Notes under the pieces: generated by a model | Databases searched by the model: none | What the model was told of the DNA's origin: nothing | The model's input: the letters and a program-made list of their open reading frames with translations, nothing else | Position numbers and translations under genes: made by a program | Part shown: positions 7,292 through 11,512 of the stretch, in pieces | Position numbering within the stretch: the stretch's first letter is position 1 | Layout: every line of letters begins with the position of its first letter | Virus record (IMG/VR): IMGVR_UViG_3300042540_001091 | Location: 1-20,256 of that record | Reading direction: 5' to 3' (one strand) | From: a virus | Length of the DNA stretch: 20,256 nucleotides

Positions 7292-7319
7292 TTGAAATAC
7301 CAAAAATATTATATATTAT
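7292..7319 (+). promoter_or_regulatory. Possible sigma70-type promoter upstream of the GC-rich orphan gene
   Basis: TTGAAA at 7292-7297 and TATTAT at 7314-7319 are separated by 16 bases, each one mismatch from the sigma70 consensus. The expected start of transcription would be around 7326, only a few bases before ATG 7330, so the mRNA would be almost leaderless. The region is so AT-rich that a chance match is quite possible. Confidence 0.35.
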
Positions 7320-7329
7320 TAAACGCGTT

Positions 7330-7575
7330 ATGAAAAACACAAACACCAACATTACTACGATGAGTCTTGACGAAATCGCAAGCTTTTACATTCCGGCCAA
7401 TGCGCCTAAGAATGTTAAGTCCTGCATCGTTGAGAACTATCTCGATACTACCCGCTATGAATTCCTCGGGTTTGTCGATCGCAGCAATACCGCCATCCTC
7501 CGCCAACGCTTCCATAGCGTCCGCGACAACAATGGCCGTTTCGCTAAGATCCGCAATACTCGCCGCGCTCGCTAA
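7330..7575 (+). CDS. Orphan small basic protein with GC-rich codon use
   Basis: An 81-residue protein, polar at the N terminus (MKNTNTNITT) and strongly basic at the C terminus (RDNNGRFAKIRNTRRAR). It matches no family I recognise. Codon use differs sharply from its neighbours: of ten arginines nine use CGC and one CGT with no AGA, and many codons end in C, whereas the surrounding genes favour AGA and A/T-ending codons. It stands alone, with a possible promoter directly upstream and a strong stem-loop directly downstream. This fits a highly expressed single-gene unit, such as an early host-takeover or nucleic-acid-binding protein, or a recent transfer. ATG 7330 has no Shine-Dalgarno site; Met11 is an alternative start. 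Confidence 0.65.
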   Translation: MKNTNTNITTMSLDEIASFYIPANAPKNVKSCIVENYLDTTRYEFLGFVDRSNTAILRQRFHSVRDNNGRFAKIRNTRRAR

Positions 7576-7597: not shown

Positions 7598-7632
7598 GAA
7601 CCCGGTTTTGGGCTTGACTCAGAACCGGGTTC
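7598..7632 (+). terminator. Strong stem-loop after the orphan gene (possible terminator, no U-tract)
   Basis: The arms 7598-7609 and 7621-7632 pair over 12 bp (ten Watson-Crick from GAACCCGGTT/AACCGGGTTC, then one G-U and one A-U) around an 11-nt loop. It is among the most stable-looking hairpins in the window. No run of T follows (next bases CTGTTAAAC), so it is not a classical intrinsic terminator; it could be an mRNA 3'-end stabiliser. AACCGG at 7574-7579 could pair with CCGGTT at 7602-7607 as an alternative fold. Confidence 0.45.
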
Positions 7633-7648
7633 CTGTTAAACTGATGTC

Positions 7649-8143: not shown

Positions 8144-8698
8144 ATGGCTGCAGTAAAACAAAAACGTCAAAAGAGAGTAGATCTAGTTTGTATCTTAACT
8201 GGAGAGGTAACTCCTAAGCAGCCTAGAGCTCGAGTCGAAAAACAGGCTAAGAAGCTTAAGTTTGGGGACGTTGAAGATTACATCAATTATTTTATTAACC
8301 GAGAAGCTCGTAAATTACTTGGTAAAGGTCATTCGGAATTAGAAATTCGAAAACAGTTTAACTGTAAAGAAACAAAGTCTATTCCCTTTCATGTACTGAA
8401 GTGTTACGTTAAGAAGTTTAAATCAAAGGACGCTGTAGATAGAAAGAGACAAAAGAAGGTAGCAGATGATTATAAACACAAGCCTATTATTGTTCAGTGG
8501 AAAGGTTCAGAACCTATTAATATGGTTAAGAACAAAGACGTTTGTGCTGAAGTTACTCAATTTGCCTGCTGGCGTCCTGATATATATCTTGATTTAGGTT
8601 GTGAGGCCTGTATACTAAAAGACAATTGCGCTTGCCCTATTAAGAATCTCAAGCGAAAACCTCATGATAGACGACCTAAAAAAGCTAAAAGTATTTGA
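8144..8698 (+). CDS. Basic hypothetical protein with C-terminal Cys cluster
   Basis: A 184-residue, strongly basic protein. The N terminus is Lys/Arg-rich ([20 protein letters not shown]), followed by a helical domain ([20 protein letters not shown]). The C-terminal third has C-x19 or so spaced cysteines ending in [17 protein letters not shown]: five Cys within about 15 residues, likely a zinc-binding knuckle or ribbon. The tail is Lys/Arg-rich ([14 protein letters not shown]). These features suggest DNA or RNA binding. It overlaps the downstream PD-(D/E)XK nuclease gene by 35 bases, so the two probably function or are at least expressed together. I do not recognise a named family. Confidence 0.6.
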
Positions 8699-10275: not shown

Positions 10276-11280
10276 GTGGAAGGTCTACCTCAAGATTATG
10301 TCATACAGGCTCTCTACTCCTACTGCAAAAGACCTGTATACAAAAAGTACCAAAGAGTTTACAACGCAGAGTGTTGCGTTTGTGGGGAAGGTAGTTCTGC
10401 TGGTCGCAAGCGTCGGCTTTTTTATTTTCCAGACGATCGGTATTTTTATTGCTTTAATTGTTCTCGGTCTTGGTCTGAGCTTAGTTGGATTCATGAGATC
10501 ACTAAAAAGTCTATTCCGGAAATCTTAAGAGAAACTAAAAACTTTGTTCCAACTTCTCAGGTTCAAAATAAAATCCAAAAACAAAACGAAGCTGTCAAGC
10601 AAGTCGATATACCTTCGATCCCTGATGACTCAATTGACATTTGTGATCCCTCTCAAGTAGATTATTACAAAGATAATAAATTCATTAAAAAAGTAATTGA
10701 TTATTGTCAGTCGAGAAGATTGTTTAGTGCTGTCAATAAACCGAAATCTTTATATGTATCTTTTAAGGATAAGGTGCATAAAAATAGGCTTATAATTCCT
10801 TTTTATGGAGAGTCTGGTAAAATAGAGTCTTACCAGTCAAGAACACTTGACGGGGATACATACCCGAAATATCTAACAAAGTACGGAGAAAAGAGCCTTT
10901 ACGGCGAGAATAATATAGATAATGATATTCCTTACATCTTTATCTTTGAAGGCCCTATTGATGCTATGTTTGTTAAAAACGCTGTGGCAGTTGGTGGCTC
11001 CTCAATGACTGATAAACAAGAAGCTTTTATTAAGAAGTGTTTCGGTAAAGAGATAATATACGTTTACGATAACGATAAGAACAATAAAGAGATGTCTAAG
11101 AAGATTAAAAACCTTATTAAACAAAATAAAAAACTCTTTGTATGGCCTAAAGAGCTTAAGAAGTATAAAGATATTAACGAAATTTGCTGTAACCTTTGCT
11201 TAGATGAATTACCTTACAAGTTTATTGTACAAAATTCTTACTCTGGAGTTGAAGCTATAATGAAACAAAAGGTCACTTAA
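10276..11280 (+). CDS. DNA primase (T4 gp61-like)
   Basis: A 334-residue primase, close to T4 gp61 in length. The N-terminal zinc-binding domain has Cys33/Cys34-x-Cys36 and Cys59-x-x-Cys62 (CHC2-type, 'YCFNC' at the second pair). A linker region with KQNE repeats follows, then a TOPRIM domain with the Glu motif IFIFEGPIDAMFV (Glu about 224), a Gly-rich turn AVGGSS, and the second acidic motif YVYDNDKNN (about 263-268). Such primases make RNA primers at the fork with the T4 gp41-type helicase. The start is GTG 10276 after AGGG. The 3' end overlaps the convergent gene at 11273 by 8 bases. The primase is expected to be an early/middle gene, yet it follows a gene with a late-type promoter. Confidence 0.85.
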   Translation: MEGLPQDYVIQALYSYCKRPVYKKYQRVYNAECCVCGEGSSAGRKRRLFYFPDDRYFYCFNCSRSWSELSWIHEITKKSIPEILRETKNFVPTSQVQNKIQKQNEAVKQVDIPSIPDDSIDICDPSQVDYYKDNKFIKKVIDYCQSRRLFSAVNKPKSLYVSFKDKVHKNRLIIPFYGESGKIESYQSRTLDGDTYPKYLTKYGEKSLYGENNIDNDIPYIFIFEGPIDAMFVKNAVAVGGSSMTDKQEAFIKKCFGKEIIYVYDNDKNNKEMSKKIKNLIKQNKKLFVWPKELKKYKDINEICCNLCLDELPYKFIVQNSYSGVEAIMKQKVT

Positions 11281-11512
11281 GATTACTTACACAGAAGTTA
11301 ATAGCCTTAAGAAATTTATCTTTGTAATTACGAATCGGTTTAACTTCTACTTCTGTTTCTGCCTCTTCAATCATTTGAAGTCTTGAAAATTCTTCTTTTA
11401 AGGATTTTAAAAACTTCTCTGAAAACTGAATTTGTTTTGGGTAACGAACTCTTGTAACAACCTTCATAGTTGTTGGAAAAAAACTCTCACAAAGTTGATC
11501 AAATTTATTCAT
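11273..11512 (-). CDS. Small hypothetical protein, weak targeting-like leader
   Basis: A 79-residue protein beginning MNKFDQLCESFFPTT. The pattern F-x-x-L-C-E resembles the leaders elsewhere, but the Glu falls at residue 9, earlier than in the others, so the resemblance is weak. The rest is charged and helical (KFLKSLKEEFSRLQMIEEAE) with a central basic stretch (VVTRVRYPKQIQFSEK). No domain is recognised. It is adjacent to the 417-residue leader-bearing protein, one base after that gene's stop, so both probably share a transcript. Confidence 0.55.
   Translation of the reverse strand: MNKFDQLCESFFPTTMKVVTRVRYPKQIQFSEKFLKSLKEEFSRLQMIEEAETEVEVKPIRNYKDKFLKAINFCVSNLK

Follow-up and report, generated by a model that had tools for sequence, protein, structure and literature searches.

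The window analysed here, a virus record of 20,256 bases, carries an exonuclease gene at 8664 (PHROG 298) and a primase gene at 10276, whose product shares 26-29 % identity with T4-like primases (best 20 of 1927 matches). It also carries a short gene encoding an 81-aa product, which a preliminary description of this DNA had noted as a solitary gene flanked by a possible promoter and a strong hairpin; both elements were located, together with a second promoter-like element and the next gene (Table 1).

Table 1. Features of the single-gene unit and of the region that follows it in the window
Feature	Position	Strand	Basis or remark
Sigma70-like promoter, TTGAAA-N16-TATTAT	7292..7319	+	-10 ends 10 nt before ATG; position kept in homologues
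CDS, 81 aa, capsid-like codons	7330..7575	+	ORF list, alignment, codon scoring
15-bp hairpin closing the unit, terminator-like	7598..7632	+	Folding; two-sided compensatory change at 2/15 pairs
Sigma70-like promoter of the next gene, TTGACT-N17-TAAACT	7614..7642	+	-35 overlaps hairpin loop
Next gene, 95 aa	7649..7936	+	Start codon 6 nt past its -10

Arginine is encoded in this gene by CGC at codons 42, 51, 58, 60, 65, 75, 78, 79 and 81 and by CGT at codon 70, i.e. nine CGC and one CGT out of ten, whereas the 211 arginine codons of the remaining window ORFs include 20 CGC and 91 AGA; the dominance of CGC and the preference of the neighbours for AGA, both pointed out earlier, are thus borne out by the counts. 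C occupies the third position in 40 of the 81 codons, 14 of 40 in the 5' half and 26 of 41 in the 3' half, where it had indeed been said to prevail, and GC3 is 0.55 and 0.68 in the two halves, respectively. With a C3 of 0.494 vs 0.129 in the other window ORFs, the gene has the highest value of 38 ORFs. The C terminus of the product, described as very basic, contains ten K/R and one D/E in its last 31 residues.

Homologues were found by IMG/VR scans on 25 distinct contigs besides the window, with identities from 96 % down to 38 %. No further contig was gained from an additional IMG/VR scan, no relative was confirmed in prokaryote genome contigs, and the GenBank phage collection gave nothing significant for the 81-aa protein, with matches only at E 7-10. 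Against the homologue of record G001, dN was 0.030 and dS 0.573; against four relatives dN/dS ranged from 0.03 to 0.05, the changes being mostly synonymous, and the gene is under strong purifying selection.

The codon bias extends to the family. Pooled over 25 loci (the window and 24 contigs, L015 being left out because it has the same target as L014), CGY accounts for 208 of 225 arginine codons in the family vs 682 of 2087 in the remaining ORFs at these loci. NNC codons are raised in most homologues, hardly so in L089 (7/28) and not in L095 (4/19), while CGY reaches merely 4/8 in L088 and 2/5 in L094; the most distant homologues (L089, L094 and L095) show a weak bias. In the C3 ranking the family gene came second at the L005 locus; this ranking left out the L010 target, for which a longer antisense ORF had been taken, and L010 is included in the CGY count. 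On these comparisons, the bias is mostly inherited within the family.

These data bear on two rival readings of the composition. The preliminary description had considered a recent acquisition, here from a GC-richer source, and the gene does differ in composition from its neighbours. Close homologues, for which it had envisaged AT-rich codons as the outcome contrary to its own proposal, keep the same bias, as do relatives at about 50 % identity and beyond; the next gene downstream is identical in kind at the four relatives compared; dS falls inside the range of the other genes (towards its low end against G001); and the searches of prokaryote contigs and GenBank phages gave no confirmed or significant match, respectively. 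For the window clade, a recent acquisition is refuted by the homologues as compared here, and we give it next to no credence. The C-rich third positions might instead reflect an overlapping gene or a conserved RNA. Frames +2 and -1 are indeed open for 70 and 82 codons in the window; however, frame -1 is broken in L013, L032, L033, L088, L089, L090 and L095 and frame +2 in L014, L032, L033, L089, L094 and L095 (L092 being left out of this comparison), and substitutions in the gene are largely synonymous, which makes this reading very improbable.

Codon usage was then scored with the major capsid gene gp23 as reference, using the own gp23 of records G011, G013 and G001 (partial in the latter). 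The family gene ranked 1/269 in G011, 1/259 in G013 and 1/107 in G001, and the window gene ranked 1/38 when scored by its relatives' gp23. The homologue outscored gp23 itself in G011 (0.579 vs 0.528) and G013 (0.505 vs 0.337) and fell below it in G001 (0.107 vs 0.327). For the window gene, z was 5.2 with the G001 reference and 6.6 with the G011 reference, the null being its synonymous codons redrawn 5000 times from window usage, and the score of the family gene was attained by 0/5000 resamplings in each run. By plain NNC fraction the family gene took second place in G011 and shared first place in G001, whose ORF begins 11 codons upstream in the codon rankings. The 22 most NNC-rich ORFs of G011 include some that we take to resemble gp21, gp19 and gp32, gp23 alone having been assigned by search. 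The likeness of the family gene to gp23 lies in synonymous codon choice and CGY arginine; it is limited to codon usage, and no relation between the proteins is claimed.

Upstream of the gene, 19 of 25 copies have one of the words TATTAT, TATAAT and TAATAT ending at a distance of exactly 10 nt from the ATG, vs 6 of 660 control genes, the three words having been picked after the family had been seen and many copies being closely related. Copies with upstream DNA were counted, i.e. L090 was excluded for want of it and both L015 and L014 were included; control ORFs were called mechanically, with loss of genes cut at the 20-kb ends, and the 668-gene control includes family members, while the 660-gene control drops 4. 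A sigma70-like score of at least 10 was obtained for 51 of 668 genes and of at least 9 for 142 of 660, and in later-found loci the best sigma70-like site is often elsewhere than 10 nt before the ATG. A 5-mer test gave no counterpart in the L047, L007 and L010 stretches for the window genes lying between 4066 and 7282, and the promoter block aligns with relatives although the upstream flank differs, an arrangement that suits a self-contained unit. The transcript would carry a very short leader or none. Shine-Dalgarno-like words were not in excess in the gene sets counted (24/307, 13/290, 6/112 and 1/39 genes vs 22, 15, 5 and 1 in the shifted control).

The hairpin of the window reaches -25.5 kcal/mol in a 50-nt stretch. 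Hairpins at or below -17.3 kcal/mol were found downstream of all 18 copies examined first and of all 7 later loci for which enough DNA was available, compared with 37 of 660 controls (L095, whose downstream DNA is missing, was left out, and L015 was counted beside L014). A clean T-run is missing from the hairpin in the window clade and T-runs are seen in more distant members; the hairpin was not among the matches of a scan of the window for terminator-like sites. The -10 of the next gene's promoter is TATACT in 9 of 12 aligned sequences, and hairpin and promoter together form a putative composite terminator-promoter. PeSL motifs of T4-like phages were reportedly treated by Arbiol in 2010 and Comeau in 2014. 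At 7598-7642, the single locus examined for this trait, a stem-loop and a host-type promoter are present between genes. Composite promoter-terminator motifs of the PeSL type, i.e. an intergenic hairpin fused with a sigma70-like promoter as seen here, occur in T4-like phages according to excerpts of PMC4503421. The capsid-like codons of most homologues and the conserved promoter-like and hairpin framing lend weight to the earlier proposal of a highly expressed single-gene unit that may be adapted to host tRNAs, high expression being what these traits would predict.

For the clade of the relatives, a T4-like setting is indicated by gp23 (PF07068), found in 2 of 12 records (G011 and G001) and in 1 of 2 (G013), most records being fragments, and by ATAAATA/TTAAATA words of the T4-type late promoter motif (TATAAATA-like), of which G011 and G001 have an excess upstream of genes. 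No match to the host marker genes WhiB and Photo_RC was obtained in 7 records. The late motif was found upstream of 0 of 25 copies of the family gene, compared with 166 of 660 control genes; since it is likewise missing upstream of gp23 in 3 of 3 relatives tested, its absence from both genes argues only weakly for early expression of the family gene. Several ORFs that we take to be virion-like from their resemblance to known proteins do bear it.

Another element is more informative about timing. The pattern TTCCC-N11-14-TANN[AT]T, written after the sequences were seen, occurs upstream of 39 of 290 G013 genes, against 0.66 on average in shuffled sequence. Of these genes, 25 lie at 60-100 kb, and 26, with a -10 ending 6 nt before the ATG, would yield leaderless mRNAs. 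The G013 homologue is among the 39, its match lying 13 nt before the ATG and overlapping a second -10 candidate; the window clade's own promoter is without the TTCCC element. From the host-like form of this promoter class and its small-gene clusters, we infer that it is early. Early expression of the family gene is only favoured, mainly through this element shared by one distant relative.

In the protein, conservation among 15 aligned members is highest in the C-terminal block, and all of them share Y43, G47, VDR 49-51, N53, L57, R60, VRDN 64-67, GR 69-70 and A72. In the window protein, the conserved VRDNxGRFA block is followed by an Arg-rich end, which is absent from 6 of 26 copies (L012, L088, L089, L092, L094 and L095); later-found members vary in the block, e.g. 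VRDTMGRFS in L082 and VRNKLGQFA in L094. AlphaFold2 predicted the same strand-helix-helix-strand-strand order for the window protein and the distant L033 protein (mean pLDDT 76.7 and 74.8, respectively), with low confidence in the conserved block past residue 60, as might fit a segment folding on its target. Family profiles scanned with the 15 members (11 further copies being left out) gave best E values of 0.037 in Pfam, 0.067 in PHROGs and 0.068 in NCBIfam; neither PDB sequences nor BFVD gave a significant match, and Foldseek of the first model against PDB folds gave none at E <= 0.001. In fold comparison by VIA, by which alone the second model was compared, the best Z values were 3.5 and 3.4 for the two models; an RRM/uL23-like fold, with Z under 4 and within chance, was set aside. 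Homology searching, proposed in the preliminary description, accordingly yielded viral relatives and matched no described family in the libraries scanned, and no account of the family was found in excerpts of the literature on codon usage, leaderless promoters and RDxxGRF-type strings. As read from sequence, the gene defines a new protein family and forms a genuine single-gene unit that is conserved and under strong selection for translation.

Given a coding sequence that is conserved, codon-adapted and framed by a promoter-like element and a hairpin, we propose that the gene forms a dedicated transcription unit, conserved in a clade of uncultured T4-like phages and probably transcribed by the host RNA polymerase from the sigma70-like promoter, early or early/middle in infection. 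Its transcript would be nearly leaderless and ended by the hairpin, and its codons, under the kind of translational selection seen in the major capsid gene, would place the 81-aa product among the abundant phage proteins. We regard this explanation as a whole, i.e. a conserved single-gene unit with capsid-like codons and a probably early, abundant product, as reasonably probable. The product might then act as a stoichiometric host-takeover factor, with the conserved C-terminal block and the Arg-rich end of most members as its binding part. Binding to nucleic acid, ribosome or RNA polymerase, suggested by charge, conservation and presumed abundance, is the likeliest role, and one that we advance tentatively.

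MotB and Ndd are small early host-takeover genes of T4. So are AsiA and MotA according to excerpts of PMC2988021. All four share with the unit a small product and a host-type promoter, action on host machinery being presumed here; they differ in that the family has no significant match in Pfam, PHROGs, NCBIfam or PDB sequences.

The capsid-like codons could also mark a late, abundant virion component, e.g. a small capsid decoration or internal protein, and T4 Soc is close in size to the 81-aa product. Codon usage like that of gp23 would be explained in this way, and since gp23 itself is without the late motif in the relatives tested, absence of the motif is compatible with late expression. Against this stand the frequency of the motif among control genes and its presence at several of the virion-like ORFs mentioned above, in contrast to its absence from every family copy, as well as the element of small-gene clusters borne by the G013 homologue; we consider a virion component unlikely. 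A counter-defence protein made early and in excess would agree with the unit anatomy and the abundance predicted for the product, on which this reading draws; the product, being basic, differs from DNA mimics such as Ocr and matches no family, and such a function appears quite improbable.

For the host-takeover reading, a far-reaching version may be envisaged, which we offer as a speculative possibility: no other protein of these phages, the capsid protein included, would be translated as strongly as this family, which would be made from a leaderless early mRNA and would represent an undescribed class of host-takeover factor acting stoichiometrically on the host transcription or translation machinery, in uncultured T4-like phages seemingly without Shine-Dalgarno initiation. 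Codon adaptation at or above capsid level singles out, from sequence alone, the first genes to test among the hundreds of unknown ones in an uncultured phage. If what we infer from it holds, the family is a strong takeover-factor candidate, and the same ranking flags further high scorers, namely clusters of small genes in G013 (60-76 kb) and G011 (202-205 kb).

Several observations were made at other loci. The small-gene cluster at G013:60766-75882 (L057) has capsid-like codons and many genes starting MMK or MMR, with their own TTCCC-N12-TAAGAT-like promoters ending 6 nt before the ATG. The ORF at G011:204642-205028 (L046 4642-5028) is third in codon adaptation and first by NNC (34/37), and a codon-adapted G011 gene (L036 12119-12523) encodes a tail rich in Lys that contains RDKLGRFVK, a string similar to the family's RDNxGRFAK block. 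An out-of-frame ORF within the primase gene of the window (10298-10525, +) shows an apparent dS of 0.036-0.164 vs three relatives, probably low because of the primase frame.

On the minus strand of G011:195318-199008 (L045 15318-19008), a tandem array of ten ORFs, most neighbours overlapping by 8 bases, encodes proteins with very different middles and related C-terminal segments like L-S-x-D-T-x-D-S-F-G-G-L-L-D-V-L, the ORF at 197407 being diverged; 8 of the 10 start MSF or MYF, then ...ES/EA/EE, N-termini that we take to be like T4 capsid-targeting propeptides. The array may consist of cassettes for head-packaged proteins, and the ORF at G011:208212 is similar to its members. In the window, unrelated proteins encoded at 2209 and 9827 and, on the minus strand, at 11512, 12767, 15761, 17005, 19442 and 19849 share a short N-terminal M-x-F/L-...-L/F-x-E, presumably comparable to the gp21-cleaved capsid-targeting peptide of T4, which suggests that several packaged proteins are encoded there.
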